Source: Hoyosella sp. YIM 151337
GTDB taxonomy: Bacteria; Actinomycetota; Actinomycetes; Mycobacteriales; Mycobacteriaceae
DNA: 64,000 bases
NCBI RefSeq assembly: GCF_026041215.1
Contig: NZ_JAPEIQ010000006.1
Location: 632,894 to 696,893, forward strand
Direction of reading: 5' to 3'
The notes below the pieces were generated by a model, which was given only the letters and a program-made list of their open reading frames with translations, searched no databases and was not told the origin of the DNA. Position numbers and translations under genes: made by a program. Positions within the stretch are counted from its first letter, which is position 1; every line of letters begins with the position of its first letter. Positions 37,294 to 59,803 of the stretch are shown piece by piece.

Positions 37294-39195
37294 TTACTTC
37301 CCTAGCATCCGCTGCGCGGCGGCTTTGAGTTCTGTGAGTTCCGCCAGTGAGCTTTCGAGCTGAGCGATCCGGACCTCTCGGTCACGTTTCGAGAGGTTCA
37401 CCGCTTCTTGGGCGGTGCGTACCGAGTCGTTGAGGGACCGCAGCGTTTGGCCAGCGATGTCGGTGAAATGGTCACGAAGCTGGCGCTGCACCCACCGCAG
37501 CCGGTCTCGCGACTCTTTGCCCGTCTGGAAGGCAACATCGTCGGTGTACTGCCTGATCGCCATCTTCGCGTCGGCGCGCCGCTTCTGCAGGCGGTTAGCC
37601 ATGTCTTCTTTGTAGGCGCGTGCTCCGAATATTACGCCCGCGCCGATCGAGAGCGGGTTTATCAGCGCCATACCAACGAGCGTCGTCGCGAGACCCACCA
37701 TGAGGATTCCGCCGTAGGACCCTCGCATCCCCACCATCACCTTGTCGGTGACGCTTAGCTTGCCTGATTCGATTTCCCCGAGGTCCGCGACGGGTTCCAG
37801 CACGCCCTCGACATCATCGAGCTCAATGTCGGGGATGTCGACGGCGTGGTCGAGAGCGAAGTGTTCACCGACTTGTTCAGCCAGCCAAAGGGAACGCTCA
37901 TGGGCCCACACGAAGTTGTCGCCCACCGCCTTAGCCGCTTGGTCTTCAAGCCATCCGCCGAGTTCCTCCCAGGCCGGCCCAGGGTCAGTGGTATCGACGG
38001 TCTCTTCCGCCGCCCTCTGGACGTGGCGCAAGCGGTCCCGCAAGTCGTGTTCAATGTCCGCGACCAGGTCCATGACGCCGTCGTTGAGCGTCTGTTGCCA
38101 CAGGGCCGAACGTTTGTGGAGTTCCTCCACCCGGGTACGGGCTTTTTCGAAGTCCGCGAGACGTTCCGCGTGGCGTGCGGGGTCGCGCAGCGAGGCCAGT
38201 TCAGCGCGCATCGAGATGATCAGGTGTTCGGTTGCTGCGGTGACGTCTGTCGCGGCCAGCCGGCGCAACGTTCCTGAGACCGTCTCCGCAACGTCATCAC
38301 GCAGGAAACGAAACAGTTCCAGGAAACCCGATTCCTGGTTGAGTGACTCGTCTCGGCGCTGCAGCGCATATCCGCGCAGCAACGCCGACACGGCAAGGAC
38401 CGGAATTTCGATTCGGGCCTCAGCCAGGTGGCGCTCGTTGGCTGCGGCGATTTCGCGCCAGTGCGGATAAAGGTCTGTTTTAGTGACGACACATGCGGCG
38501 GCCGGGCACACGCCCGCAGCCTGGCGGAGAAAGTCCACTTCCGGCACCGTCAGCTCGCGACTGGCGTCGGTGACGAAGAAGACTGCATCAGATGTTTGCA
38601 GCAGGCTGAGTGTGCTGGCTAATCGTGGATTACCGTGTCCGCCGACACCTGGCGTATCGATGAGCATGAGGCCTTCGCGCAGCACCGGCGAGGGAATGCC
38701 AATTTCTAGCCGCAGCACGCTTTGCCCGGCCGCGAACGGCGTGAGTGGTGTGATCGCATGGATTTCGTCCAGCGGCACCGGCTGGCGCGACACGTTCCCC
38801 GAGGTATCACTGAGGGCAAGAAAGGCAGCTGCCTGCTCCGCGTAGTGAACCTGCGTTGGCACTGCCGTCGCCTCGTCGTCACCGACCGTGCACGCACCCG
38901 CGTTGATCAAAGAGTTGACGAGTTGACTTTTACCTTGCTTCAACTCACCGACGACTGCCACACGCAGCCTCGAATCGCTGACACGTTCCCGGACAGCTAT
39001 AAGTTTGCGGGCCAAGTCATCGCGGCCAGATTTCGTTACCGCACGCAGCGCCGTGTCGACCATCGCCACGAGTGCGGCTTGATCGGCCACCTTGCTTCGC
39101 ACTGATGACACTGTGACATGTTGCGTCGTACCGTCCTGCGAGCCCGGCACGCTGGAGCGATCGATCGTGGCAGTGCGCTCGGGCGTCTGCGTCAT
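37294..39195 (-). CDS. iniA: Dynamin-like GTPase IniA
   Basis: The protein has 633 residues from ATG 39195, which follows AAGGGA at seven bases; a TTG one codon earlier is not needed. All GTPase motifs are present: GELKQGKS (83-90), a switch Thr in DEATAVPT, DTPGVGG and TKTD. A long helical stalk follows, with a hydrophobic membrane-insertion segment at about 500-545 (GGILMVGLATTLVGMALI and following) and a C-terminal coiled coil. Mycobacterial IniA is known as a membrane-remodelling dynamin-like protein induced by isoniazid and ethambutol. It is the second gene of the ini operon, behind the giant iniB and a strong hairpin. Confidence 0.95.
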   Translation of the reverse strand: MTQTPERTATIDRSSVPGSQDGTTQHVTVSSVRSKVADQAALVAMVDTALRAVTKSGRDDLARKLIAVRERVSDSRLRVAVVGELKQGKSQLVNSLINAGACTVGDDEATAVPTQVHYAEQAAAFLALSDTSGNVSRQPVPLDEIHAITPLTPFAAGQSVLRLEIGIPSPVLREGLMLIDTPGVGGHGNPRLASTLSLLQTSDAVFFVTDASRELTVPEVDFLRQAAGVCPAAACVVTKTDLYPHWREIAAANERHLAEARIEIPVLAVSALLRGYALQRRDESLNQESGFLELFRFLRDDVAETVSGTLRRLAATDVTAATEHLIISMRAELASLRDPARHAERLADFEKARTRVEELHKRSALWQQTLNDGVMDLVADIEHDLRDRLRHVQRAAEETVDTTDPGPAWEELGGWLEDQAAKAVGDNFVWAHERSLWLAEQVGEHFALDHAVDIPDIELDDVEGVLEPVADLGEIESGKLSVTDKVMVGMRGSYGGILMVGLATTLVGMALINPLSIGAGVIFGARAYKEDMANRLQKRRADAKMAIRQYTDDVAFQTGKESRDRLRWVQRQLRDHFTDIAGQTLRSLNDSVRTAQEAVNLSKRDREVRIAQLESSLAELTELKAAAQRMLGK

Positions 39196-39217
39196 CAAGT
39201 GGTCCCTTTCGCGCAGT

Positions 39218-39337: not shown

Positions 39338-42300
39338 TCACCCGATGAAGTCGCCGCTGTCTGCGACGGGAGCATCGAATGCGGACGTCAAACCGGAATC
39401 CCACGTTTGCGACAGGCCGCTTGAGAGCCCGGATGTAAGCCCACTCGTCAGCCCCGTGGCGGTCGTACCCAGAGTGTCTGCACCACTCCCCACCGTATCG
39501 GTCACGACACCCGTGACCGCACCGGTCGTGCTGGCAACCGGGGCAGCGTAGTCGGTTACGGGAGCACTGTAAGTGCTGTAGTCCGTGGTTCCGCTGAAGC
39601 TGTCCGTGCTGTCCGGGACGGACATTGCACTCACCGACTCAGACGCCGTGGTGAGTCCGCCCGTAATCCCAGCCGCGCCTTCAAGTGTCCCTGAGACGGC
39701 ACCAGCAACTCCACCGATCGCCTCGGCTCCACCCGCAGCAGCGCCCGCGACGCCTCCAACAGCTTCCGCGGCAGCACCTCCGGCACCGGCCACACCAGCT
39801 GTTGCATCGCCCAGGAACTGGGTGCTCCCGGACAGCGCCCCGGCCGCGTCGCCAAGCGCGTCGGCGCCTCCAGCCACCGCACCGGTGACTCCGCCGAGAG
39901 CATCTGCCGAACCGCCCGCGGCACCAGCGAACGCTCCTGCCGCGTCGCCGATGACTCCAGCGCCACCGTCAAGCACCCCTGCGAACCCGCCAGCTGCGTC
40001 GCCGACAGCACCAGCTGACCCAGCGAGCGCACCCGCTGCGCCACCCAGCGCATCGGCGCCGCCTTCGAAGGCTCCCGTGAAGCCACCCGCGGCGCCTCCC
40101 ACAGCTTCAGCAGCACCGGCAAGCGCACCACCCGCTTCCGCAGCGCCTGCAAGGGCACCAGCCACATCACCGATCGCTTCCGCGCCACCTGCAGCCGCAC
40201 CAGCCGCCTCGCCCAGTGCACCCGCACTGCCCGCGAGCGCGCCAGCGGCCGCAGCGGCAGCACCAGCGCCACCGGCAAGTGCAGCACTGCCAGCCCCTGC
40301 AACGTCGCCGATCGCACCGGCGCTTCCCGCCAGGCCCCCGGCGACATCACCGACCGCTCCTGCCGAACCAGCAAGGCCACCAGCAGCGTCAGCGCCGCTT
40401 TGCAGAGCACCAGAGAATGCGCTTGCGGCATCGCCCAGTGCACCTGCGGAACCTGCCACAGCGCCTGCGGCACCACCGAAGGCGTCCGCACCGGCTCCGA
40501 GGGCGCCACCGAACGCACCCGCTGTTTCTCCGAGCGCACCCGCAGAACCGGCGAGTGCACCAGCGGCGCCGCCGACAGCGCCGGCTCCGCCTTCAAGCCC
40601 GCTTCCAGCCGCCCCGGCCACACCGCCCAAAGCTCCTGCCCCGCCGCTAACGGCGCCTCCCAGCGCACCTGCAAGCCCTCCAAGCGCGCCGGCCGAACCA
40701 GCGACCGCACCCGCAGTACTGGCAAGAGCATCAGCACCACCGCTGAGCGCGCCGCCAGCAGAACCTGCAGCGTCACCGAGCGCGCCCGCACTGCCCGCCA
40801 ATGCTGCGGCGGTGTTGCCCGCAGCCGCAGCACCACCCTGCAGCGCCCCGCTGAACGCGCCAGCGGCGTCGCCGAGAACACCCGCCGACCCGGCAAGCGC
40901 TCCGGCGGCTCCTCCGACAGCGTCCGCACCGCCCTCGAACGCGCCAGTGAAGGCACCCGCTGCTCCACCCAGCGCACCTGCTGAGCCGGCGAGCGCACCA
41001 GCGACATCACCGACCGCCCCAGCAGAACCAGCAAGCGCACCAGCGGCACCACCGAGGGCCTCAGCACCGCCAGCGAATGCGCCCGCAGCTGCGCCCGCGA
41101 CATCACCGACCGCCCCAGCAGAGCCGGCCAGCGCACCAGCGACATCACCGACCGCCCCAGCAGAACCAGCAAGCGCACCAGCCGCACCGCCAACAGCCTC
41201 AGCACCCCCGGTCAACGCACCGGAGAAGGCACCCGCGGCACCTCCAAGTGCGCCCGCGGAACCAGCCAGCGCACCGGCCACGTCTCCAACTGCACCGGCT
41301 GAACCAGCGGCCGCTCCAGCCACGTCGCCGATGGCGCCAGCTGAACCTGCGAACGCGGCACCCGCTTCGCCCAGCGCTCCAGCGCCCCCGGCGAAGGCCC
41401 CAGCAGCTGAACCGGCGACATCCCCGAGAGCACCAGCCGAGCCAGCTAGTGCGCCAGTCGCACCACCCACAGCCTCAGCACCACCAGCAAACGCACCCGC
41501 CGCACCACCAGCAACACCACCAAGCGCTTCCGCACCGACAGCCAGGGCGCCAGCCGCACCACCCACAGCCTCAGCACCACCAGCAAACGCACCCGCCGCA
41601 CCACCAGCTACACCGCCGAGCGCTTCCGCACCGCCAGCCAGGGCGCCAGCTGCGCCACCCACAGCCTCAGCACCACCAGCAAACGCACCCGCCGCACCAC
41701 CAGCTACACCGCCGAGCGCTTCCGCACCGCCAGCCAGGGCACCGGCTGCGCCGGCGGCGGCTTCAGCACCGCCAGCGAGTGTTCCTCCAAGCCCGAAGGC
41801 CGAGTCACCAAGCGCACCACCGAGACCCGCACCGGCCTCAGCACCGCCAGCCACCGCGCCAGCCGCGGCTCCTAATGCGCCAGCCGATCCAGCGAGGGCG
41901 CCACCAACCTCCCCGAGGGCGCCCGCACTTCCCGCGAGAGCACCGGCAACGTCACCGACAGCGCCAGCCGAACCCGCGAGCGCCCCGGCGACCTCGCCAG
42001 CTGCACCGGCGGCTCCGGCGAGAGCACCACCGGCTTCTCCCGCTGCGCCAGCGGCACCGGCCACGGCACCCGCAGCGTCACCAAGTGCGCTTGCGCCACC
42101 GGCGAAGGCGCCCGCAAAGCCACCCGCAGCCTCTCCGAGTGCGCCCGCGCTTCCTGCGAGTGCACCGGCAACGTCACCAACCGCACCAGCCGAACCCGCC
42201 AGCCCTCCTGCGACACCACCGAGCGCTTCGGCGCCACCAGCGAACGCTCCGGCTCCCGCACCAGCAACCTCGCCGAGCGCTCCGGCTGAACCGGCGAGCG

Positions 42301-45300
42301 CACCAGCAACCTCACCGACAGCTCCGGCTGACCCCGCAAGGGCACCAGCAGCACCGCCAATCGCTTCCGCTCCACCGGTGAATGCGCCGCCGACCGCGCC
42401 AGCAGCCTCCCCGAGGGCGCCCGCAGAACCGGCCAGACCGCCAGCGACTCCACCAACTGCGCCAGCCGAACCAGCCAGACCGCCAGCGACATCACCGACC
42501 GCGCCAGCCGAACCAGCCAGCGCGCCAGCCACACCACCGAGTGCCTCAACACCGCCAGCGAAGGCGCCCGCAGCTGCACCCGCAACGTCACCGATCGCAC
42601 CCGCACTGCCGGCCAACGCACCGGCAGCGTCACCCAATGCAGCGGCGCCGCCTTCAAACGCACCAGTCAGACCGCCAGCGGCACCAGCCAATCCACTTGC
42701 GCTCCCCGCCAAAGCTCCCGCCACGTCGCCGACCGCACCTGCGCCGCCTGTAGCTGCACCACCCAGAGCGCCCGCGGCTTCTCCGAGGACCCCCGCGCCA
42801 CCTGCGAGGCCGCCCGCGACATCGCCGATCGCCGACGCACCACCAGCGAGACCCGTGCCCACCGCCCCGGCGACGTCGCCCGCCGCACCCGCTGCACCAG
42901 CGAACGCTCCTGCGGCCGCACCTGCGGCTTCGGCACCACTCTCGAGTGCGCCCGTGAACGCTCCGGCTGCACCGCCGAGAGCTTCCGCGCCGCCACTCAG
43001 TGCGCCAGAAACAGCCCCGGCGGCTTCTCCGAGCGCTCCAGCCGAACCGGCAAGACTGCCTGCGACGTCACCGACCGCTCCAGCTCCACCCGCAAGTCCG
43101 GCTGCCGCAGCCCCGGCAACTTCACCGACCGCGCCAGCTGATCCCGCGAGCGCGCCCGCAACGTCACCGACCGCGCCCGCGCCGCCTTCAAAGGCACCGC
43201 CCACGGCGGCAGCAGCGTCACCCAGGGCGCCAGCAGATCCGGCGAGAGCTCCTGTCACACCTCCGACCGCACCAGCGCTACCTGCAAGATCGCTCGCAGC
43301 ACCCGCAAGCGCTTCTCCCATGCCCGCAAATCCACCGATTGCTTCAGCACCACCGGCCGCAACGGCTGCGAGGCCTGCTGCTGCCGCTGCCGCGCCACCT
43401 GCTGCGGCGGCAGCAGCTCCGGCAACCGAACCTGCCGTTTGTCCCGCAGCGCCAGCGCTCCCTGCAACAGCTCCCGCAGCGTCACCAGCAGCGCCAGCCG
43501 AACTAGCGACCGCACCAGCGGCGCCACCAATCGCTCCCGCACCGCCGGCGAAGGCACCGCCCAGGCTTCCCGCAACGTCACCCGCAGCCCCGGCAGCACC
43601 TGCGAGCGCACCGGCGGCTCCGGCTGCGGCCCCTGCAGCACCGCTGAGCGCCCCCGTCGCACCGCCCGCTGCGCCCGCAAGCGCTTCAGCACCACCGGCG
43701 AACGCGCCCCCGAGGTTTCCAGCGACGTCTCCGACTGCCGTTGCCCCGCCGGACAGCGCTCCCGCTGCTTGCGCGGCTGCCCCCGCGGTTCCGTCCACTG
43801 CACCCGAGAGCGCACCTCCTGCAGCAGCTGCTGCCCCAGCTGCACCCGCGACCGCGCCCGCGGCAGCGCCCGCAGCTTCCGCCGCGCCCGCTGCGGCACC
43901 CGCGACCCCTGCCACGGCTTCAGCTGCACCGCTGAACCCGCCGGAGATATCACCTACAAATTCCACTGCACCAATACCTCCTGTGAGATCGCCAATTAGG
44001 CTGGGGTCAAGAACTTCTGAGAGATCTGGCAGGTCACCTAGGCCAGGCAAATCCCCGAGCCCGGGCAAGTCACCAATGTTGGCAGTGAAGTCACCAATCT
44101 GGCCGATGTTGCCTATATCGCCAAGAGTGGCGATATTTTCGACCACAGCCGAGATGTTGCCGAAGTCGCCGATCTGGGCGAGGTCTTCGAAGAACGCGGT
44201 CACATTGCCAATGTCCCCGGCTGAGAGGCCCGACAGCACATCACCAATGGCCGCGGACGGGTCGCCGCTGACGTTCACGACGCTGTCAATCATGTCGTTG
44301 AGGACTGAGGGGTCGCTGATATTGGCGAAATCTTGCAACGTGGCGGAGAGATTCCCGATATCGACTGTGTCGTTAAGCGATATTAGGTTCGTCAGGACGT
44401 CGCCGACCACGTTCCCCGACCCGAGGTTTGCTGCCGCGTCGTTTAGCACATCGCTAATCGAAGCGATCAGTGTTGGGTCACCGACAGCAGCGAGGTTCGA
44501 GAGAACGTCGCCGATCTGACCGATCACCGTTGGGTCCGACACGCCCGTGAGGTCCCCAATCACCGAGCTAATCGGCCCGAGCTGGCCGAAGTCACCACTC
44601 AGTATGTCCGTGAGCTCATTGCCAGAAGCGATACCGGAAAGCACATCACCGAATTGGCCCACAATCGCTGGATCACCAATCGCGCTCAGACCCGAAAGCA
44701 CATCTCCGATCTCACCGACCACCGTCGGGTCGGAAATGTTGCCAACGCCGTTCAGGAAGTCACCCACCTGCCCAAAGACATCGTTACCGCTGAGAACATC
44801 ACCGATTTGGCCGACACCGCTGATGTCACCTAGCTGCGCAAGGCTGTCGAACACAGCACCGACAGCACTGATATCACCAACCTCCGCGAGATCACTGAAG
44901 AACGCCCCGAGCTGCCCGATATCGCCAGACGCGATATTCGACAACACATCGCCGACCGCAGCTGATGGATCACCCGACGCCAGTCCGTTGAGGAAGTCAG
45001 CGACAATCGCGGGATCGCTGATGTTCGCGATGTCCCCGAATGCAGCTCCCAGGTTTCCGATGTCGACAGTGTCACTCAGCGTTGCCAGATTGGAGAGAAT
45101 ATCGCCGAACTGGCCAACATTTTCGATGTCGGCCACGTTGGACAGGACGTCACCCACCTGACCGAATATCGCAGGATCGGTGATTGTAACGAGGTTCGAA
45201 AGAACATCGCCAAACTGCCCGACCACTGTGGGGTCGGCAACCGCAGTAAGGCCCGACAGCACGTCACCGACCTGATTGCCGCTGAGAACATCACCGATCT

Positions 45301-48300
45301 GACCGATCACCGCGGGATCCGCTATACCGGTGAAGCCGGAGAACACATCACCGATCTCACCGATTATTGACGGGTCATTCAAGGCAGCGAGTCCGCTAAG
45401 GACATCACCGAACTGGCCGACGTCACTGATATCACCCAACTGCGCGAGGTTGTCAAACACCGCATTGATCCCGTTGAGGTCACCTGCCTGCGCGATGTCC
45501 TGAACGATGGCGGTGAGCTGCCCAACATCTCCACTCGAGATAGTTGTAAGCACGTCCCCAACAGTGGCCGACGGGTCAGCGCTAACAAGGTCGTTCAGGA
45601 AGTTCGAGAGCAACTGCGGGTCACTAACGTTCGCGAAATCCTGCAGGACAGTCCCGACTGCGTCGAGGTTGAAGCTGTCACTCATCGACGCGATGTTGGC
45701 AATGATGTCACCGACCTCATTGCCACTGAAAAGGTCACCAAGCTGGCCGAAATCGCTGATGTTGCCGATTCCCGAGAGGACGTCCCCGACCTGACCGATT
45801 GCTGTTGGATCGCCGATCGAGCTGAGCCCGGAGAGTACGTCACCAATCTGTCCAGCATTCCCGGAGAGCAGATCACCAAACTCGTTGCCGTTGATTCCGG
45901 ACAGAACGTCACCGACCTGACCGATGACGGCAGGATTCAGCGCCGACAGGTCACTCAGCACGTCACCCATCTGCCCGATGTTGGTGATGTCACCCGACAG
46001 GATGTCAGTGACTGGATTCGCGTTCCCGGAAAGGACATCACCGATGTCTCCCAGGTTGGCGAGATCGCTGAGCACTGAGAGGTTTTGGAAGACTGCACCT
46101 AGCTGTCCAATGTCTCCAACCTGGGCGACGTCCTGGAAAAATGCCGCAAACTGACCAATGTCACCGGTCTGGGCAACGTCCTGCAGTGTCGCGCCTAGCG
46201 CACCGATGTTGAGGTTGTCGCTCAGCGCGCTGAGGTCATTGAGAGAGTCGCTTATCTGACCGAAGTTCTCGAAGGAACCGATACCGCTCAGCACATCGCC
46301 GATCTGTCCGATCGTGGCGTTATCGCCGATCGAAATCAGCTCTGACACAACGTCACCAATTTCGTTGGCATTGCCGAAGTTCGACAGGATGTCGGTGACC
46401 TGACCAATCACCGTGGGATCAGAGATATTTGCGATGCCGGACAGAACATCACCGAGTTGGTTCCCGTTCCCGGCTTCGACGAAGTTGCTGAGCACGTCCC
46501 CAATCTGCCCAACATTGCTGATGTCATTAAGCGCAGCAATGTTCTCGAAGACTGGGCTGAGAACGTTGAGATCACCCATCTGGGCGAGATTGTCTAAGAA
46601 GGCTCCAACCTCGCTGATATCGCCCGTCTGCGCAATGTCTTGCAGAACCGCACCGAGTTCACCGACGTTGAAGCTGTCGCTGATCGTGCCGAAGTTGCTG
46701 AGGATGTCGCTAATTTGTCCAATGTTGGTGAAGTCGCCTGCACTCGCGAGATTCGAGAGCACATCGCCGATTTCGCCGACATTTGCGAAGTCGCCCGCAT
46801 CCACCAGATCACTGAGTACGTTGCCGATCTGCGTGTTGTCGAGATTCGCGATGCCGCTAAGGACGTCGCCGATCTCACCGAAAACGGTGGGGTCGGTGAT
46901 GTTCGCGAACCCGGATAGGACATCACCGAGCTGGTTTGCATTTGCCAGGCCACTCAAGACGTCACCAATCTGATTGGCGTTGCCCGCATCCACCAGATCA
47001 CTGAGAACATTGCCGACCTCGTTCGCATTACCGATACCTGACAGCACTTCACTGATGTGACCGACATTGCTGAGGTCATTCAGTGCAGATAGGTTGTCGA
47101 ATACCGCGCTGATGCCGGTGACATCACCGACCTGAGCGATGTCCTGCAGGAACGGGGCGAAGTCTCCCATTTGCGCGACATCCTGCAACGTCGCTGCGAG
47201 TGTTCCGAGGTTCAGGTTGTCGCTGATCGCGCTGAAGTTCGAGAGGATGTCACCGACCTGTCCGATGTTCTCGAGTCCTCCGAGGCTCGACAGGACGTCA
47301 CCGACTTCTCCGATCCCCGTGACGTCACCGAAGGAGCCGAGTCCACTGAGGACGTCACCGAGTTGCCCTATTGAGTTTCCGTCACCAATGCCTGACAGGC
47401 CGGAGAGTACGTCACCCACATCGTTGCCTGATGCGAGACCAGAAAGGACGTCACCGACCTGACCGATCACCGTGGGATCGGAAATGTTCGCGATGCCCGA
47501 CAGCACGTCAGTGATGGGAGCGATGACGGTGGGATCAGAAATATTGCCGATGCCACTAAGCACGTCACTGATGTCGCTGATGTTCCCAAAATCACTCAGT
47601 GTCGAAATGTTTTCGAAAACTGGGTTCAGAACACTGAGGTCACCGTTTTGCGTGATGTTGTCGAAGAATGCGCCGACCTGGCTGATGTCGCCCGTGTTTG
47701 CGAATCCCTGCAGCACATCACCGAGGTTGGTAACCGGCGCGAAGTCACCGACGTCTACCAGGTCAGACAGAATCTCGCTGACTTGGCCGACATTCTCTAG
47801 GTTGCCGAAACCGCTGAGCACATCGCCGACCTGGCCAGCGTTGTCCATGTTGGCGATGCCGCTGAGGACATCTCCGATCTGACCGATCGATGCGATGTCT
47901 CCAGTTGTCAGGCCGCTCAGCACATCACTGATGTCATTGCCGCCGGCCAGACTGGTGAGGACGTCACCAACCTGGGCGATCACCGCCGGATCCGAAATGT
48001 TGGCGATTCCAGACAGCACGTCACCGAACTGGCCGAAGTCGCCAGTGAGCACATCGCCGATCTGGCCTACGTTGTCGAGAACCGGGCTCAGAACGCTGAG
48101 GTCACCGGCCTGACCGATGTTCTGGAAGAAGTTGGTGAGGTTGCCGAGATCTCCATTATTGGTGATTGCTGAGAGCACATCACCGGACAGCACATCTCCG
48201 ACTTCACTTGCTATGCCGGTGATGTCGCCGACCGTGTTGCCCGACCCGAGATTCGCTGCCGCGTCGTTTAGCACATCGCTAAACGAGCCGATCAGTGTTG

Positions 48301-51300
48301 GGTCGCCGATGCTAGCGAGGTTTGACAGCACATCACCAAACTGGCTGTTGTTGAGAACATCACTGACCTGTGCGAGCGAAATGGCCGCGACATCGCCAAT
48401 CTGGCCGACGCCGTTGTCGCCGTTGGCAATGCCGCCGACCATGTCCCCAATTTGATTACCACCGGCAAGCCCATTAAGGACGTCTGTGATGGTATTTCCG
48501 TTTGCGATGTCACTGAGCTGCCCAATGTTGCTCAGCACATCACCGATGGCGTTGACGTCACCGACATCAGCCAGGTCATTGAAGAATGCCGCGAGCTGCC
48601 CGATGTCACCAGTGGTGAAGCCAGAGAGGATGTCACCGATGTCGCTGGAAGGGTTGAGGATGTCGCTCAGCACAGACGGATCAGTGATGTTAGCGAAGTC
48701 CTGCAAAGCGTTGCCGATGGCAGTCAGGTTGGCGGTGTCACCCAGCGTTACAAGCTGCGAGAGTACGTCTCCGACCTCAGTGAAATTGCCGGAGAAAAGG
48801 TCGCCACTAAGCACGTCGGCGATTTGTCCGAGGTTCTCGACGTTTCCGATTCCGATCAGCACATCGCCAAGCTGACCGATCGCGGTAGGATCACCAATCT
48901 GAGCGAGACCGGAAAGAACGTCGCCGAACTGATTGCCGCCGAGCACGTCACCTAGTTGGTTACCCGAAGCAAGACCCGACAGAGCTTCACTAAAGTCACC
49001 GACGATTGCGGGGTCGGTGATCTGCGCGAAGTTCGAGAGCACGTCTCCGACCTGGCCGATCACGGTATTGTCCGTGATGTCTCCGAGCTGTGCGATATTC
49101 GACAGGACGTCAGTGAGCTGGTTGCCTGACAATACGTCGCCGATATCTGCCAGGTTGCCTGCAATGCCGGTAATGTCACCCGCCTGCGCGAGAGTCTCGA
49201 AAAATGCGCCAACCTGCTCGAGTTGACCGATGTTCGACAAGACATCTCCAAAAACGGCAGACGGATCGCCGGTAGCGATATTGCTGAGGATGTCCCCGAT
49301 AAGAGCGGCGTCGCTGATGTTGGCAAAGTCCTGGAGTACCGCTCCGAGCGAAGCGATCGTAGCGTCGTCACCGAACGAGCCGATGTTTGACAGGACATCA
49401 CCGACTTGGCCGATTGCCGCAGGGTCGCCTACAGAAGCGAGTCCACTGAGGACGTCACCAAATTGGCCGATCAGTGCCGGGTTAGCGATGTTTGACAGGA
49501 TGTCACCGAACTCGTTGCCACCAGCCAGGTTGTTGAGTACGTCCGTGAACTGACCGATCACGGCCGGATCCGCGCTAAACCCAGAAAGCACATCGCCGAA
49601 ACCGCTCAGGATGTCACCGAACTGAGTGCCGGAGAGAATATCGCTGACATCCCCGATACCTGAGACGTCTCCGAGGTTGTTTCCGCCAACAATATTCGAT
49701 AGCACATCATTGAACTGACCGAATCCACTGAGTACATCGCCAATCTCGCCGATGTTCGCGATGTCGCTGAGGCTGACAAGGTTGTCGAAGACTTGACCCA
49801 CGGCCGTGAGGTCTCCCACCTGCGCGATGTCCTGGAAGAACGCGCCCACCTGGTTCAATTCCGCGAGCCCAAAGTCACCGAAGTTCGAGATGTTGGACAG
49901 TACGTCTCCCGACAGGATGTCGCCGAAGACTGCGGATGGGTCACCAATCGTTGCGATGTCCTGCAAAGCCGCGCCGAGCGCACCGATATTCAGGTTCTCG
50001 CTCACCGTCGCGAGGTTAGAAAGCACGTCGCCGACCTCGCCGATTCCGTTCCCGTCACCGATGCCGATTAGGCCGGAAAGGATGTCTCCGTTGTTACCAG
50101 ACAGCAGATCGCCCACTCCGCTCAGGTTCTCCACGTTTCCGATGCCGGAAAGTACGTCGCCAACCTGCCCGAATAGCGTTGGATCGGAGATGCCCGCAAT
50201 ATCGCCGAGGAACGTTGTGATCGGCCCAAACTGACCAGCGTTGCCCGAGAGAATGTCGGCAAGATCGGAAACTGCGACCGGATTGTTCGACGCGAGGCCG
50301 GACAGAATGTCACCGAACTGGCCGATCAAAACGGGGTCGTTGAGCGCGCCAAGGCCCGAAAGAATGTCACCGAACTGAGCGAAATCGCTAAAGTCACTCA
50401 GCTGCGCGACATTGCCGCTCAAGACGTCACCGATCTGCGCGATGTTTCCGCTGCCGATCCCGGAGAGAACGTCACCAAACTGGGTGACGCCGTCAGCGTT
50501 CGCCAGGTTGGTGAGTACATCTCCAGCCTGCGCGACATTGCCGCTCAAGACGTCACCGACAACGCTGAGGTTGTTCACGTCACCGAACTGGGCGAGGCTT
50601 TCGAAGACGGGACCAATCGCGGTGAAATCGCCCGCGGTGATGAGGTCTGACAGGAGCGACGTGTCGGAGAGGTTCGCGAAGTTGTTCAGTGCGTCACCGA
50701 TCGCACCGATACTCGCGATATCGCCCGTCGAAGCGAGGTTCGAGAGGATGTCACCGACTTGACCGATCGCGCCGACGTTTCCTGAGAGGACGTCCCCAAT
50801 CTGTCCCACTACCGCGGGATCGGTGAAGGCACTGAACCCTGAGAGGACGTCCCCCACCTGGCCGAGAACCACTGGGTCAAACTGTGCAAGGTTGGACAGC
50901 ACATCCCCAAATTGGTTGCCGGAAAGGGCTTCTCCGATCTGGGTTATCACCGTGTTGTCGGCAATTTGCGCGAAGTTCGAAAGGATGTCGCTCACCTGGC
51001 CAATTGCCACCGCGTCGTTGAGCGCCGTGATGCCCGAGAGGACGTCACCCACCTGGTTTCCTCCCGCGATACCTGAAATCACGTTGCCAACCTCGTTCCC
51101 GGTGAGCACATCACCGATATGACCAGCGAAATCCCCAAACTGGTTGCCTGATAGTAGATTTGCGGCGATGTCACCGAAGTCGCCTGCGATACCGGTGATA
51201 TCGCCGAGCTGGTTTCCGCTCAGCAGTTCACCGATCTGCCCGATGGTGCTGATGTCACTCAGTTGAGCAATGTTGTTCAGAACGTCGCCAAGCTGACCGA

Positions 51301-54300
51301 TCACGACCGGATCATTGATCAGCGCGATATTGGAAAGAACGTCGGTAAGTTGGTTGCCACCCGCCACGTTGGTAAGCACGTCGCTGATCTGATTCAGCAC
51401 AGTGATATCTCCGGCGTCGATCAAGTCGCTGAGAACGGCGATGTTGTCGAAAACTGGAGAAAGTGCACTGATATCGCCGATCTGGCCAATAATCGTTGGA
51501 TCCGTGATGTTGGCGATGTTCTCAAGTGCAGATCCGATGGCGGTGAAGCTGGCACCATCACCGAGCTGGCCGATGTTCGAGAGCACGTCCCCGATCTGGT
51601 TGAGTGCCGTAACGTCGCCAGTAAGGATTTCGCCTACGCCCGAACCATTTCCGATGTTGCTGAGAACGTCCCCAATCCCGCTCAGGTTCTCGACGTTGCC
51701 GAGCCCGATAAGGACATCACCGATCTGACCGAGGACGCCCGCGTTGTTCAGCGCCACCAGGTCTGAAAGCACATCACCGATCGTGCTCACATTTGTGACG
51801 TCGCCGACCGTACCGATGAGTTGCGCGCTGTTGGCGCTGAGCAGGTCGCCGATGTTCCCGATATTGTTGAGAAATTCCGCAGCTCCCGCGATATCGCCCA
51901 TCTGAGCAACGTCTTGCAGGAACGCCGCGAAGTTGCCGAGGTCACCGTTATTGGTGAGGACGTCACCAATCTGGCCGATTCCGATCGTGTCCGAGTCGAT
52001 GACGGCGTTCAGGAAATCAGCGACAAATACCGGGTCACCGATGTTCGCGAAGTTCTGGAGCGCGTTCGTCAGCACGTCGACGCCAACATTGTCGTTGAGG
52101 AAAGCGAGATCCGACAGGATGTCGCCGATAGTGCCGATTCCAGTGGAGTCGCTGATGCCGGTGAGATCTCCGAGCACTGCGGTGAGGGGCCCCAACTGAC
52201 CAATGTTGTTGGACAGCACATCTCCGACACCCTCGAGTGATGCACCATTGGCGACATTGCTAAGGACATCGCCGATTTCGCCAATCGTTGTGGGCTCGAA
52301 CGTGGACGCCAGGTTCGACAGCACGTCGCCGAGCTGACCGATGTCACTAAGGTTGGAAAGGACATCTCCGTTGTTGGTGATCAGGTTAGTAAGCGTGTCG
52401 CCGACCTGACCGATTCCTGTCAGGTCTCCGAACTGACCGATGTTCTGCAGGACATCGCTGATGAGCGCGATATCGCTAAAATTCGCAGTACCAGTGATGT
52501 TGTTCAGCACATCGCCGACCGTTGCGGATGGGTCAAGGATGCTGATGTTTTGGAGAAAGTCACTCACCTGGTTAAGCACGGCGACATCGCTGATGTTCGC
52601 GATGTTCTGCAGGTTGTCGCTGAGGATTGAAAGCGGGCCAGTGAGATTGGCGGAGTCGGTGAGGTTCGCAAAGTTGGACAACACATCACCGAGCTGGCCA
52701 ATTAACGCCGTGTCACCGATTGAAGCAAGCTGGTTGAGCACATTGCTGATTTCTCCGATACCGGTGAGATCCTGTGCCGTGAGGTTTGAGAGAACATCAC
52801 CGATCGTCGCGCTCGGTTCGTTGAGGATGTCCGAAACGCCCACAAGATTGCCGACATCGGAAATCCCACTAAATCCGTTGAGAACGTCTGTGAGCGCGGT
52901 GTTGAGCGTGTTGATGTCGCCGACATTGGATAACACTGCCACGAGATCGCTGAAGGTTACATCCGGGTCGAAGACCCCCGTAAGGCCGTCGAGCACAGAG
53001 TTGAAAACGCTGAGGTCCCCGATCTGAGCGAACTGCTGCAAGGTGTCCGCAACCGTCGCGATATTGGTGATGTCGCCAATCTGGGACAGCCCCGAAAGTA
53101 TGTTGCCGATCTCGCCGATGCCACTGAAATCACCGGCGTTGCTGAGTATGTCACCAATGACGGCCGAGGGGTCACCGACGTTGACGAGGTTCGAAAGGAT
53201 GTCGCCGACCTGTCCAACATTCGTCAGGTCACCGACATTGGCGAAGTCCTGCAGAATTTGACCGATGTTGGAGACGTCACCGATCCCCGACAGATTCGAC
53301 AGGAAGTCACCAACATTGATGAGGTTGCTGAGGACGTCGGTATCCGTAATGTCGAGATCTTGCAGAATTGCGGTGATTCCCCCGAGGTCGTTGATACCCG
53401 TAATGTTCTGCAGGAGTGACGGATCGATCGATCCGATGCCCGTGATGTTCTGCAGAATGTCACCCACCTGACCGAGTGCGGTCAGGTCGTTCAAGAAGGC
53501 GATGTTCTGCAGGAAGTCGCCGATCGGACCGATTCCGGTGACGTCACCGACGTTGGCGAGGCTGTTGATGATGTCACCGATCGCCAGCGACGGCTCGAGG
53601 ATGCCGATGTTCGAGAGGTTTTGCACGAAGTTCCCGATGTCGGTGAGGTCACCAAGCGAGGCTGCATTGATGAGGTCGCCGAAGACGTTGTTGCTCAGCA
53701 CGTCGATCGGGAGAATCTCGGAAAGCGTGATTCCTGACGTGAGGATGTCGGTCAGAATCGGGCCGGTGAGATTGCCGATATCACCGAGATTGATATCCCC
53801 CAGACCGATATCACCGAGGCTGATGTCACCGATGTTGCCGATATTGCCGATGTCGCCGATATTGGTAACCGGCCCGGTCACATCTCCTCCGCCGGGCGGA
53901 TTGTTGATGATAATAGTGTCGCCACCACCGCCGGGCGGGGTGGTGATGATGTTGTTGTTCGTATTGTTGTTGATATTGGTGATAGGTGCCGCCGCGCCGC
54001 CGCCTGGTGCGCCAGGATTGATGACGGGGGCAATCACTGGAGTTATTACAGGCGCAATCACGGGGTTGAAGACAATGTTGCCCCCGCCTGCCCCACCTCC
54101 GGGCGTGACTATCGTCGGACCGACGATAGTCGGTCCGACGATAGTGGGACCGGTGGTGCTCGGTCCCACAATCGTAGGTCCGTGGGTCACGGCGGATGAG
54201 CTTCCGCCTGGCCCCTGCACCACTACTGCCTTTCCGCCACCGTGCCCACCGCCGGGAGTCAGAAGATTGACGATTTTGGTGGCTCCCCCCGCCGCCAGGT

Positions 54301-54541
54301 GCGAAGCACCGAACCACCCAGACGGGCACAGATGCGCGGCTAGGGCACTCGGATCACCATTAAAGCCGCCGATTTTGCAGATCAGCGGCGCGATGGCGTC
54401 GATATCCGCGCGACAAAAAGGCAGTACCTCGTGCTTTTCAAGGAAACATGCTGGGTTGGCGAGGAACTCTTCACGGGCACTCGAGTCCCGGAGCAGCCAA
54501 AGAATAAGTGCAACCAGTGGGTTGCCCGCGGTAATCGACAT
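39338..54541 (-). CDS. iniB: Giant IniB-like repeat protein
   Basis: About 5,067 residues from ATG 54541 (MSITAGNPLVALILWLLR), with TGAGG just before it; upstream in-frame starts to 54634 add only non-conserved residues. Order: IniB N-terminal domain (1-95) with four Cys; Gly/Pro/Asn-rich linker (95-225) containing GPTIV repeats; about 3,260 residues of 19-residue repeats of the form IGxIGDVLSxLxxxGDxxx; a short GDLPGL turn; about 1,430 residues of Ala/Gly repeats of about 14 residues (AGALAGSAGAVGDV); and a Ser/Thr-rich tail with GLTSGL motifs. There is no classical signal peptide. IniB of M. tuberculosis has 479 residues and the same plan (N-domain plus Gly/Ala-rich body). Gene order with iniA and iniC supports the assignment. 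The function is unknown even in mycobacteria; I infer a surface or envelope-associated structural role. Confidence 0.92.
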   Translation of the reverse strand: MSITAGNPLVALILWLLRDSSAREEFLANPACFLEKHEVLPFCRADIDAIAPLICKIGGFNGDPSALAAHLCPSGWFGASHLAAGGATKIVNLLTPGGGHGGGKAVVVQGPGGSSSAVTHGPTIVGPSTTGPTIVGPTIVGPTIVTPGGGAGGGNIVFNPVIAPVITPVIAPVINPGAPGGGAAAPITNINNNTNNNIITTPPGGGGDTIIINNPPGGGDVTGPVTNIGDIGNIGNIGDISLGDIGLGDINLGDIGNLTGPILTDILTSGITLSEILPIDVLSNNVFGDLINAASLGDLTDIGNFVQNLSNIGILEPSLAIGDIINSLANVGDVTGIGPIGDFLQNIAFLNDLTALGQVGDILQNITGIGSIDPSLLQNITGINDLGGITAILQDLDITDTDVLSNLINVGDFLSNLSGIGDVSNIGQILQDFANVGDLTNVGQVGDILSNLVNVGDPSAVIGDILSNAGDFSGIGEIGNILSGLSQIGDITNIATVADTLQQFAQIGDLSVFNSVLDGLTGVFDPDVTFSDLVAVLSNVGDINTLNTALTDVLNGFSGISDVGNLVGVSDILNEPSATIGDVLSNLTAQDLTGIGEISNVLNQLASIGDTALIGQLGDVLSNFANLTDSANLTGPLSILSDNLQNIANISDVAVLNQVSDFLQNISILDPSATVGDVLNNITGTANFSDIALISDVLQNIGQFGDLTGIGQVGDTLTNLITNNGDVLSNLSDIGQLGDVLSNLASTFEPTTIGEIGDVLSNVANGASLEGVGDVLSNNIGQLGPLTAVLGDLTGISDSTGIGTIGDILSDLAFLNDNVGVDVLTNALQNFANIGDPVFVADFLNAVIDSDTIGIGQIGDVLTNNGDLGNFAAFLQDVAQMGDIAGAAEFLNNIGNIGDLLSANSAQLIGTVGDVTNVSTIGDVLSDLVALNNAGVLGQIGDVLIGLGNVENLSGIGDVLSNIGNGSGVGEILTGDVTALNQIGDVLSNIGQLGDGASFTAIGSALENIANITDPTIIGQIGDISALSPVFDNIAVLSDLIDAGDITVLNQISDVLTNVAGGNQLTDVLSNIALINDPVVIGQLGDVLNNIAQLSDISTIGQIGELLSGNQLGDITGIAGDFGDIAANLLSGNQFGDFAGHIGDVLTGNEVGNVISGIAGGNQVGDVLSGITALNDAVAIGQVSDILSNFAQIADNTVITQIGEALSGNQFGDVLSNLAQFDPVVLGQVGDVLSGFSAFTDPAVVGQIGDVLSGNVGAIGQVGDILSNLASTGDIASIGAIGDALNNFANLSDTSLLSDLITAGDFTAIGPVFESLAQFGDVNNLSVVGDVLSGNVAQAGDVLTNLANADGVTQFGDVLSGIGSGNIAQIGDVLSGNVAQLSDFSDFAQFGDILSGLGALNDPVLIGQFGDILSGLASNNPVAVSDLADILSGNAGQFGPITTFLGDIAGISDPTLFGQVGDVLSGIGNVENLSGVGDLLSGNNGDILSGLIGIGDGNGIGEVGDVLSNLATVSENLNIGALGAALQDIATIGDPSAVFGDILSGDVLSNISNFGDFGLAELNQVGAFFQDIAQVGDLTAVGQVFDNLVSLSDIANIGEIGDVLSGFGQFNDVLSNIVGGNNLGDVSGIGDVSDILSGTQFGDILSGFGDVLSGFSADPAVIGQFTDVLNNLAGGNEFGDILSNIANPALIGQFGDVLSGLASVGDPAAIGQVGDVLSNIGSFGDDATIASLGAVLQDFANISDAALIGDILSNIATGDPSAVFGDVLSNIGQLEQVGAFFETLAQAGDITGIAGNLADIGDVLSGNQLTDVLSNIAQLGDITDNTVIGQVGDVLSNFAQITDPAIVGDFSEALSGLASGNQLGDVLGGNQFGDVLSGLAQIGDPTAIGQLGDVLIGIGNVENLGQIADVLSGDLFSGNFTEVGDVLSQLVTLGDTANLTAIGNALQDFANITDPSVLSDILNPSSDIGDILSGFTTGDIGQLAAFFNDLADVGDVNAIGDVLSNIGQLSDIANGNTITDVLNGLAGGNQIGDMVGGIANGDNGVGQIGDVAAISLAQVSDVLNNSQFGDVLSNLASIGDPTLIGSFSDVLNDAAANLGSGNTVGDITGIASEVGDVLSGDVLSAITNNGDLGNLTNFFQNIGQAGDLSVLSPVLDNVGQIGDVLTGDFGQFGDVLSGIANISDPAVIAQVGDVLTSLAGGNDISDVLSGLTTGDIASIGQIGDVLSGIANMDNAGQVGDVLSGFGNLENVGQVSEILSDLVDVGDFAPVTNLGDVLQGFANTGDISQVGAFFDNITQNGDLSVLNPVFENISTLSDFGNISDISDVLSGIGNISDPTVIAPITDVLSGIANISDPTVIGQVGDVLSGLASGNDVGDVLSGLSGIGDGNSIGQLGDVLSGLGSFGDVTGIGEVGDVLSSLGGLENIGQVGDILSNFSAISDNLNLGTLAATLQDVAQMGDFAPFLQDIAQVGDVTGISAVFDNLSALNDLSNVGHISEVLSGIGNANEVGNVLSDLVDAGNANQIGDVLSGLANANQLGDVLSGFANITDPTVFGEIGDVLSGIANLDNTQIGNVLSDLVDAGDFANVGEIGDVLSNLASAGDFTNIGQISDILSNFGTISDSFNVGELGAVLQDIAQTGDISEVGAFLDNLAQMGDLNVLSPVFENIAALNDISNVGQIGDVLSNFVEAGNGNQLGDVLSGIANISDPTVIGQVTDILSNFGNANEIGDVVSELISIGDNATIGQIGDVLSGIGSFENFGQISDSLNDLSALSDNLNIGALGATLQDVAQTGDIGQFAAFFQDVAQVGDIGQLGAVFQNLSVLSDLANLGDIGDVLSGNANPVTDILSGDITNIGQMGDVLSDLSALNPAVIGQVGDVLSGINGNEFGDLLSGNAGQIGDVLSGLSSIGDPTAIGQVGDVLSGIGNISDFGQLGDLFSGNEVGDIIANIASMSDSFNLDAVGTVLQDFANVSDPQLLSNFLNDLVSADPSATVGDVLTTISSGDVGQLTAIVQDIAQAGDLNGINAVFDNLAQLGDISDVGQFGDVLSGLAALNDPSIIGEIGDVFSGFTGIADPAVIGQIGDVLSGNQVGDVLSGLTAVADPTVVGQFGDVLSNLVTITDPAIFGQVGDVLSNVADIENVGQFGDILSNLATLSDTVDIGNLGAAFGDIANISDPAIVADFLNGLASGDPSAAVGDVLSNIASGDIGQLGAFFSDLAEVGDISAVGAVFDSLAQLGDISGVGQIGDVLSGNDVFGQVGDFLNGVGNISDPTVVGEIGDVLSGLSAIGDPAIVGQFGDVLSGIASGNELTDILSGDFGQLGPISSVIGDLTGVSDPTVIGQIGDVLSNLAAVGDPTLIASISDVLNDAAANLGSGNVVGDVLTNLISLNDTVDIGNLSATLQDFANISDPSVLNDMIDSVVNVSGDPSAAIGDVLSGLSAGDIGNVTAFFEDLAQIGDFGNISAVVENIATLGDIGNIGQIGDFTANIGDLPGLGDLPGLGDLPDLSEVLDPSLIGDLTGGIGAVEFVGDISGGFSGAAEAVAGVAGAAAGAAEAAGAAAGAVAGAAGAAAAAGGALSGAVDGTAGAAAQAAGALSGGATAVGDVAGNLGGAFAGGAEALAGAAGGATGALSGAAGAAAGAAGALAGAAGAAGDVAGSLGGAFAGGAGAIGGAAGAVASSAGAAGDAAGAVAGSAGAAGQTAGSVAGAAAAAAGGAAAAAAGLAAVAAGGAEAIGGFAGMGEALAGAASDLAGSAGAVGGVTGALAGSAGALGDAAAAVGGAFEGGAGAVGDVAGALAGSAGAVGEVAGAAAAGLAGGAGAVGDVAGSLAGSAGALGEAAGAVSGALSGGAEALGGAAGAFTGALESGAEAAGAAAGAFAGAAGAAGDVAGAVGTGLAGGASAIGDVAGGLAGGAGVLGEAAGALGGAATGGAGAVGDVAGALAGSASGLAGAAGGLTGAFEGGAAALGDAAGALAGSAGAIGDVAGAAAGAFAGGVEALGGVAGALAGSAGAVGDVAGGLAGSAGAVGGVAGGLAGSAGALGEAAGAVGGAFTGGAEAIGGAAGALAGSAGAVGEVAGALAGSAGALGEVAGAGAGAFAGGAEALGGVAGGLAGSAGAVGDVAGALAGSAGALGEAAGGFAGAFAGGASALGDAAGAVAGAAGAAGEAGGALAGAAGAAGEVAGALAGSAGAVGDVAGALAGSAGALGEVGGALAGSAGALGAAAGAVAGGAEAGAGLGGALGDSAFGLGGTLAGGAEAAAGAAGALAGGAEALGGVAGGAAGAFAGGAEAVGGAAGALAGGAEALGGVAGGAAGAFAGGAEAVGGAAGALAVGAEALGGVAGGAAGAFAGGAEAVGGATGALAGSAGALGDVAGSAAGAFAGGAGALGEAGAAFAGSAGAIGDVAGAAAGSAGAVGDVAGALAGSAGALGGAAGAFSGALTGGAEAVGGAAGALAGSAGAVGDVAGALAGSAGAVGDVAGAAAGAFAGGAEALGGAAGALAGSAGAVGDVAGALAGSAGALGGAAGAFTGAFEGGADAVGGAAGALAGSAGVLGDAAGAFSGALQGGAAAAGNTAAALAGSAGALGDAAGSAGGALSGGADALASTAGAVAGSAGALGGLAGALGGAVSGGAGALGGVAGAAGSGLEGGAGAVGGAAGALAGSAGALGETAGAFGGALGAGADAFGGAAGAVAGSAGALGDAASAFSGALQSGADAAGGLAGSAGAVGDVAGGLAGSAGAIGDVAGAGSAALAGGAGAAAAAAGALAGSAGALGEAAGAAAGGAEAIGDVAGALAGAAEAGGALAGAAEAVGGAAGGFTGAFEGGADALGGAAGALAGSAGAVGDAAGGFAGVLDGGAGVIGDAAGAFAGAAGGSADALGGVTGAVAGGADALGDAAGALSGSTQFLGDATAGVAGAGGAAAEAVGGVAGAAAGGAEAIGGVAGAVSGTLEGAAGITGGLTTASESVSAMSVPDSTDSFSGTTDYSTYSAPVTDYAAPVASTTGAVTGVVTDTVGSGADTLGTTATGLTSGLTSGLSSGLSQTWDSGLTSAFDAPVADSGDFIG
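39660..43960 (-). repeat. IniB repeat region B: Ala/Gly-rich 14-residue repeats
   Basis: About 1,430 residues of units like AGALAGSAGAVGDV and AGAFAGGAEALGGV, mostly 14 residues with 18-residue variants (AGAVGGAFTGGAEAIGGA). The composition is dominated by Ala, Gly, Ser and Val with scattered Asp and Glu and almost no Lys, Arg, Pro or aromatic residues except Phe. The antisense strand is open over the whole stretch because of codon choice. Confidence 0.88.
44080..53870 (-). repeat. IniB repeat region A: 19-residue GDVLS repeats in ten or more super-repeats
   Basis: The coding sequence is built of units such as IGQVGDVLSGLASVGDPAA, 19 residues with frequent 16-residue variants. The consensus is hydrophobic at positions 1, 4, 7, 8 and 11 with Gly-Asp turns. 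About 3,260 residues correspond to roughly 170 units if all had 19. A longer pattern recurs as well: blocks with LQDxAxxxD (near 44330, 45020, 45640, 46175, 46635, 47175, 48695, 49330, 49955, 50680, 51520 and 52045) mark super-repeats of mostly 150-280 residues. A solenoid fold is likely. Confidence 0.88.
48236..48320 (-). repeat. Near-identical internal duplicate of 44411-44495 within iniB
   Basis: About 74 of 85 bases match the stretch at 44411-44495, coding for DPTLIxSxSDVLNDAAANLG in both places. Most other repeat units differ more at DNA level, so this pair points to a more recent duplication or gene conversion. Confidence 0.7.
54257..54541 (-). other. IniB N-terminal domain
   Basis: Residues 1-95 of the giant protein. 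The helical start (NPLVALILWLLRDSSAREEF, then LANPACFLEKHE) matches the family pattern seen in mycobacterial IniB (LIDYILSLFRSEDAARSF). The Cys residues at about 31, 41, 53 and 72 are unusual for this domain and could form disulfides if exported. Confidence 0.8.
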
Positions 54542-54828
54542 TGCCTCAGCCCTCGTTCCGTCCGTGGGTGACAAAAGCACGCTCACGCGCATCGTTGTGA
54601 GCTCGATTCTTCGCGCGGCCCCGACCGTGCCCAATGGGGGACAACCCGCGATTGGTTACCGTCGCTTAGGGGAACGATCTTTAGGGGAAGCGCCCCCTAT
54701 AGGGGATATGCCCGGTAGTCTTGGCGTGTCCTAGACCACACCCACACCGGGACTGGGATTGTGGGCGGGGAACGTTCGCCTGCAGCGCAGGCAGTGCAAC
54801 ACCGCTGCAGCAAACTGAAAGGTGCGCC
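54542..54828. promoter_or_regulatory. Divergent regulatory region between iniB and the Hsp70-like gene
   Basis: The region is 287 bases with no convincing gene. TTAGGGGAA occurs twice (54666-54674 and 54681-54689, 15 bases apart) and a third related box ATAGGGGAT lies at 54699-54707. The palindrome CCCCTATAGGGG at 54694-54705 overlaps the third. These boxes probably bind a regulator of iniB, of the Hsp70-like operon, or of both; the LuxR-type protein at 57027 is the obvious candidate. Confidence 0.6.
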
Positions 54829-59612: not shown

Positions 59613-59803
59613 CCGTGACCCGGGCGAACCACATGATGTGATCCACGTCAACCGGTCTTGCATTCGCTGGTCACAGTTGGGTGACTAATCGAACTCAACT
59701 CTGCCGCTCGTCCCCCGGGCTCCCTACAGTGATCCGAAGGCACGGCCCGCGATCATCGTTCGCGGGCACCCTGGGCTGCCGAGAAAGGCATGGTAGGTCA
59801 CTG

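Follow-up and report, generated by a model that had tools for sequence, protein, structure and literature searches.

The window, a 64,000-nucleotide stretch of the genome of Hoyosella sp. YIM 151337, contains on its minus strand one very long open frame (39338-54634) whose single stop codon lies at the frame end. The ATG at 54541 was chosen as the start of the gene because both of its Hoyosella orthologues begin with the same motif, MS[I/L]TAGNP, and the resulting 15.2-kb iniB encodes a product of 473 kDa with a pI of 4.05 (Table 1). On the basis of its head domain and operon context, the protein is filed as an IniB. Specifically, the NCBIfam model IniB_NTERM (NF038175) matches residues 10-54 with an E-value of 8.2e-8 and 32.1 bits, relative to a curated cut-off of 40, and it scores 40.0 (flagged as over the cut-off) and 39.1 (below it) in the orthologues of Hoyosella altamirensis (G001) and a third Hoyosella genome (G002), respectively, whose heads are 72-74% identical to that of the window protein. 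No Pfam family matched the head, and two candidate matches of the head in the PDB were not built upon: a weak one to LigA-domain peptides and cytochromes (E about 0.06-0.09), and one at 9e-9 whose value sums three matched stretches. The original prediction of an IniB of about 5,067 residues in one uninterrupted frame, heading an iniBAC operon, is borne out: the frame is confirmed as a real, intact gene, with intact orthologues in two other Hoyosella genomes, and it is directly followed by iniA and iniC, whose products both exceed the Pfam cut-off for Dynamin_N.

Table 1. Features of the iniB locus (window positions)
Feature	Position	Strand	Remarks
iniC, dynamin-like GTPase	35743..37215	-	Dynamin_N E 1.1e-11, 45.4 bits, cut-off 27
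iniA, dynamin-like GTPase, listed start TTG	37294..39198	-	Dynamin_N E 6.4e-14, 52.8 bits, cut-off 27
iniB	39338..54541	-	5,067 residues + stop
IniB C-terminal Gly/Thr/Ser-rich stretch, residues 4938-5067, + stop	39338..39730	-	
IniB tail region 2, residues 3534-4937	39731..43942	-	Ala/Gly-rich; period about 3.5 residues; net charge -85; no K/R
IniB tail region 1, residues 222-3533	43943..53878	-	GDVLSN-type repeats, 16/19/35-residue spacing; net charge -420; no K/R
IniB low-complexity linker, residues 76-221	53879..54316	-	last K at 104; Pro-containing hydrophobic stretch 156-174
IniB head, residues 1-75, predicted helical domain	54317..54541	-	NF038175 match; AlphaFold2
Three CCCCTA promoter boxes	54667..54705	-	54705-54700, 54687-54682, 54672-54667; first two 18 bp apart
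Hsp70-like protein	54721..57030	+	HSP70 E 1.7e-21; predicted membrane span about residues 439-457; K/R-free C-terminal 233 residues
iniR-like regulator	57027..59612	+	NF038181 E 9e-156, 520.5 bits over nearly full length; cut-off 750
Trypsin-fold protease	59681..61093	+	Trypsin E 5.9e-6; signal-peptide-like segment near N-terminus (by eye)

The same prediction described the operon as otherwise normal; the iniB-iniA-iniC order stands, but the cluster is fuller than that description, since it also includes an Hsp70-like membrane protein, IniR and a trypsin-fold protease. The true start of iniA probably lies downstream of the listed TTG because the match to H. altamirensis DSM 45258, the best match of the window IniA (81%), begins at residue 29. 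In 13 of the 14 genomes compared, iniA and iniC come after iniB; the stretch from the 14th stops at a contig edge. The Hsp70-like gene is divergent from iniB, and the HSP70 match of its product (76.5 bits, cut-off 20.6) covers profile positions 102-373 of 599; this partial domain, with an added span and a Gly/Val/Thr tail, marks the protein as Hsp70-like rather than DnaK. The corresponding genes of the other two Hoyosella genomes are full length, and a frame with a span and a K/R-poor tail was found at 79 of the 95 loci examined, some genomes being counted twice. A trypsin-fold protease lies beyond IniR in all three Hoyosella genomes, in all four giant-bearing genomes of a second genus described below (g23, possibly Nocardia), and in 11 of 16 flanks of non-giant loci; as a mark of the giant class it was therefore rejected, although one of the five absences falls on a short contig.

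Within the window IniB, AlphaFold2 predicts the head with a pLDDT of about 90-95 at residues 11-70, and in the tail it draws helices that are short in region 1 and long in region 2. At a tail pLDDT of about 40-50, these helices suggest secondary structure without an assignable fold, and fold searches with the tail found no reliable fold. Residues 105-5067 (4,963 residues) contain no lysine and no arginine, and the last such residue lies at 104, compared with 103 in both orthologues. Trypsin-based proteomics would miss the tail because it offers neither K nor R. As a side observation, the G+C content is 72-74% in most of region 2 (positions 40000-43999), 55-59% in region 1 (44000-53999), and 62-69% in neighbouring genes.

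One reading of such a protein, the one originally suggested but which we consider unlikely, is that IniB is exported as a long envelope or surface fibre, with a K/R-free tail that would cross the membrane easily and resist K/R-specific proteases outside. According to the accessible portion of one report, M. tuberculosis IniB is found in the cell-wall fraction, and its expression in M. smegmatis reduces permeability (PMC7350357); that location fits an exported protein better than the membrane-tethered polymer considered below. Residues 156-174, hydrophobic at a Kyte-Doolittle value of 2.07, do sit between the K/R-containing head and the K/R-free tail, but this stretch holds four prolines and is not a conserved span, since other IniBs have their hydrophobic maxima at different places. 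Moreover, hydropathy of the window protein showed no N-terminal signal and no clear membrane span, and the head is a predicted folded domain with helices from residue 8. The neighbours are more favourable to export: at most loci the Hsp70-like protein has 3-8 K/R in the 30 residues before its predicted span and a K/R-poor tail behind it, and the protease of the cluster, from its signal-peptide-like start as judged by eye, is probably exported.

The giant iniB frame was present in all three Hoyosella genomes searched, the intact orthologues encoding 4,332 and 3,690 residues. One (G002) lies on a 4,738,809-bp contig that corresponds to the published complete chromosome of Amycolicicoccus subflavus, now called Hoyosella subflava, and the second (G001) comes from the draft genome of H. 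altamirensis DSM 45258. The three pairwise alignments show 3,037/3,644, 3,512/4,261, and 3,441/3,631 identical residues (82-95%). Region 2 is near-constant among the three species (1,404, 1,407, and 1,411 residues), and region 1 varies widely (3,312, 2,573, and 1,929 residues) with gaps of up to 680 residues, so growth or loss of length has occurred mainly in region 1. The tail is under purifying selection, which is strong in region 2 (dN/dS 0.04-0.07): between the window and H. altamirensis, dN/dS was 0.075 (region 1) and 0.043 (region 2), at a dS of 1.5-2.0 that is near saturation, and between G002 and G001 it was 0.31 and 0.07, respectively, the former value probably being inflated by misaligned repeats.

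The window genome is a 48-contig draft, and protein-database searches within length limits found no giant IniB homologue, a blank that says little because whole-genome searches then found four giants. Virtually no credence can be given to an assembly or annotation artefact. Exact DNA repeats reach at most 86 bp across iniB and 32 bp within region 1 (a 96-bp unit occurs in 3.1 copies at 95%), which makes short-read collapse a minor risk, and misassembly is very unlikely given intact orthologues, one on a complete chromosome and another in a second draft, that are under purifying selection. It is quite improbable, too, that the tail is a weakly constrained, low-complexity extension grown by drift in tolerant lineages, with only the loss of K/R being selected. 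Such drift would suit region 1, which differs by 1,383 residues among the three species through in-frame segments of up to 680 and shows the dN/dS of 0.31 noted above; it sits poorly with a region 2 constant within 7 residues, with the dN/dS values of 0.04-0.08 (at a near-saturated dS) in both regions between the window and H. altamirensis, with the recurrence of giants in a second genus, and with the high cost of a giant protein.

The absence of positive charge extends well beyond Hoyosella. Leaving aside the Mycobacterium-type proteins, this charge rule was defined on 82 distinct IniBs (the window protein, those of the other two Hoyosella genomes, and 79 more), with near-identical strains counted separately and four frames reaching the edge of the sequence examined. 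In 75 of the 82, there is no K/R at all after residue 110, the other seven having 1-10; when the 82 tails are pooled, 24 K/R stand against 7,783 D/E in 83,200 residues. Many of these proteins have their last K/R at residue 15-18, the site of an invariant arginine in the head. By comparison, the longest K/R-free run is at most 47 residues in IniA, IniC, IniR, and the protease, and 233 in the Hsp70-like protein. The acidic, K/R-free tail of the window IniB conforms to this rule, which was derived here rather than taken from the literature; it spans two types of tail repeat, and the four g23 giants come close to obeying it. An odd member of the set is the IniB of locus L034 (G013), which, unlike its relatives, has an Asn/Asp/Ser/Gly-rich tail with 10 K/R, and whose IniA sits on a very long branch.

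The two repeat types differ in hydrophobic periodicity. In the window protein, the large hydrophobic residues of region 2 peak at 102 degrees per residue (3.5 residues; 5.2 relative to 1.03 in shuffles) and those of region 1 at 112-114 degrees (3.2 residues; 5.9 relative to 1.0), of which only the former is the usual helix value. The strongest peak is at 102 or 114 degrees (3.2-3.5 residues) in all three Hoyosella tails and at a period of 2 (180 degrees) in 79 of 79 distinct tails that are neither Hoyosella nor giant. Measured against shuffles across 100 loci, with duplicate and Mycobacterium-type entries kept in, the 180-degree signal has a median z of 23; it is weak in L034, at z 3.0, and absent in six Mycobacterium-type proteins. 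Such a signal suggests, without proving, a strand-like alternation. Likewise, a 40-residue scan found peaks at 94-120 degrees in 88% of windows of the window IniB and that of H. altamirensis, with period-2 peaks in 1-3%, whereas four of five other tails had period-2 peaks in 58-91%. The fifth, L025 (G026; a Speluncibacter match), is mixed, with 29% of windows at period 2 and 56% at 94-120 degrees, and because it also adjoins Hoyosella in the IniA tree (support 85), its tail may be intermediate. In Hoyosella, then, tail type and length changed and the charge rule stayed. An enlargement of about tenfold by repeat expansion, as originally proposed, is not supported: the non-giant tails of other genera are mostly alternating and the Hoyosella tail has helix-like periods, so the latter was replaced or remade as well as lengthened.

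The periodicities, together with the low-confidence AlphaFold2 helices, mean that, instead of a loose brush, the tail may be a folded or assembled structure. On a further reading, IniB would be a self-assembling scaffold, with helix repeats in the giants and alternating, silk-like repeats elsewhere, forming either a permeability-lowering layer or plug at sites of damage or a multivalent amphipathic-helix coat on curved membrane. We regard such a scaffold as distinctly unlikely, even with the strength of both the helix-like and the period-2 signals in its favour. In the accessible text of a further study, overexpression of iniBAC in BCG altered envelope permeability, the direction of the change being inconsistently stated (PMC13413693).

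A tally of N-terminal-domain matches showed that giant IniBs recur. The domain was found in 216 of 401 genomes of the family, 78 of which were searched again for further matches, and frames of more than 2,000 residues among the matches listed came from the three Hoyosella genomes and from three g23 genomes (4,823, 5,260, and 6,067 residues). A search of 150 g23 genomes, 121 of them with a match, added one frame of 10,618, other listed frames reaching at most 1,979; among the matches listed for 200 genomes drawn from the order, 61 of which have the domain, the longest frame apart from that of the window was 995. The 10,618-codon open frame (G594; L188-L190) codes for a protein of 10,616 residues with an IniB head; it has 13 K/R (5 after residue 110) and 1,484 D/E, and its K/R-free run spans 9,684 residues. 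In the other three g23 giants, 2-3 K/R follow residue 110, the K/R-free runs measure 5,907, 4,664, and 4,164 residues, and the peaks lie at 104 degrees.

The g23 giants thus resemble those of Hoyosella in their GDV repeats, helix-like period, and long K/R-free runs, as well as in their promoter boxes and neighbours, with IniR, the Hsp70-like gene, IniA, and IniC beside the giant iniB in all four. With SEG off, and with the caution due to low-complexity sequence, pieces of the Hoyosella tail match the g23 giants by blastp at E-values of 1e-14 to 4e-37, as opposed to 0.017 at best for the alternating tails. Unlike the Hoyosella proteins, however, they retain 2-5 K/R after residue 110 (in 4,810-10,616 residues), contain only about 6% Ala, and have no counterpart of the Ala-rich region 2. 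In addition, a second, ordinary iniB lies downstream in the same four genomes; its product is 751-1,232 residues long, keeps 0-1 K/R beyond residue 110, and has a period-2 tail, so the two kinds of tail coexist there. In the IniA tree (a quick, midpoint-rooted build of 93 rows, with g23 rows coming only from the four giant-bearing genomes), Hoyosella and g23 form separate supported clades, and the giant state must therefore have arisen more than once, moved between operons, or been lost repeatedly. Two further observations concern these genomes and this tree. By tblastn, the Hsp70-like tail also matches the giant IniB itself in three of the four g23 giants; and in the IniA tree the iniBAC locus of L127, from a record titled Kitasatospora arboriphila, falls very near Williamsia muralis, the record probably being mislabelled or contaminated.

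The giant iniB was also predicted to be tightly induced, and induction is indeed likely, judging from the adjoining IniR-like gene and from promoter boxes shared across the family. At least two CCCCTA or TAGGGG boxes occur in 71 of 78 distinct 250-bp upstream regions, relative to 17 of 1,560 base-shuffles, and two CCCCTA boxes exactly 18 bp apart in 44 of the 78, relative to 0 of 3,900; the regions include close strains, and all three Hoyosella are among the 44. The 18-bp pair is present in all four g23 giants, which were checked apart from these 78, and the six Mycobacterium-type loci also have CCCCTA boxes upstream of iniB, mostly at other spacings. IniR is reported, in the accessible part of one study, to bind upstream of iniBAC, with trehalose as an inducer (PMC5760070), and the boxes are accordingly offered as a candidate IniR operator.

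Positive charge is excluded from the tail as repeat type and length change, and the simplest reading is a polyanionic polymer whose function lies in its bulk and charge. We tentatively favour, at less than even confidence, a role for IniB as a membrane-tethered acidic polymer that helps IniA and IniC, predicted dynamin-like cutters, to bend membrane. Under envelope stress, binding of IniR to the CCCCTA boxes would induce iniBAC, and the folded head would tether IniB at the membrane or to a partner, which may be IniA, IniC, or the Hsp70-like membrane protein. The uniformly negative tail, sticking neither to anionic lipid nor to itself, would form a large brush whose steric and electrostatic pressure would favour curvature and vesicle release. 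Selection would then keep charge and bulk rather than sequence or fold, and length could run away.

Published work, as far as its accessible portions go, supplies several pieces of this polymer model. IniA has been reported to cut membranes (i.e., membrane fission; PMC6715688), and IniA and IniC have been tied to vesicle release with curved membrane, iniAC being needed for normal vesicle output; it counts against the model that in M. tuberculosis this output is tied to iniA and iniC, with no role for IniB stated in the accessible portions of the same reports (PMC11077946, PMC11832169). RNA data suggest that IniB is possibly made in excess over IniA and IniC (PMC5760070). Bulky disordered domains, such as those of Epsin1 and AP180, are reported to bend membranes through steric pressure (PMC4515776), and the tail of IniB may work in a like manner; there is no homology, however, and IniB is bacterial with a helix-like tail. 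The broadest form of the proposal holds that a charge rule, not sequence, builds IniBs from a small head and any long K/R-free tail, that two lineages independently made giant helix-repeat versions of up to 10,616 residues, and that these polyanions bend membrane for dynamin-like proteins in stress-induced vesicle release; taken as a whole, it is rather doubtful.

Among the products of this well-studied envelope-stress operon of mycobacteria, IniB is the least understood. In an accessible literature mostly lacking subscription papers, descriptions of giant IniBs, of the missing K/R, or of the Hsp70-like neighbour were not found. The giants, the near-absence of K/R, and the two tail types show that selection holds charge, head, operon, and promoter rather than sequence, repeat type, or length, and they replace a "function unknown" with claims, open to test, on what the charge and bulk of a polymer do beside dynamin-like proteins. 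They also carry a warning, as most of these IniB proteins would be invisible to trypsin-based proteomics.

Rhodococcus, Williamsia, Gordonia, and their relatives share with the window the head, the cluster, and an acidic tail with no or few K/R, and differ in having IniBs of 400-1,885 residues with period 2 in 79 of 79 (weak in L034 and mixed in L025). The mycobacterial IniB (Rv0341) is alike in its head domain, its upstream CCCCTA boxes, and the iniB-iniA-iniC order, the last known in M. tuberculosis from the accessible portion of published work. In the six loci of genus g29, which appears to be Mycobacterium-type, the 12 IniB proteins are 173-377 residues long, compared with 5,067 in the window, and have 0-6 K/R after residue 110, compared with none in the window tail. 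Their tails are Asn/Asp/Gly/Ser-rich in the two examined, and the six longer proteins lack a hydrophobic period, unlike the helix-like repeats of the window IniB. Finally, in these Mycobacterium-type genomes (L147-L152) the IniB-headed genes come as a tandem pair, the shorter encoding 173-196 residues and the longer 326-377.
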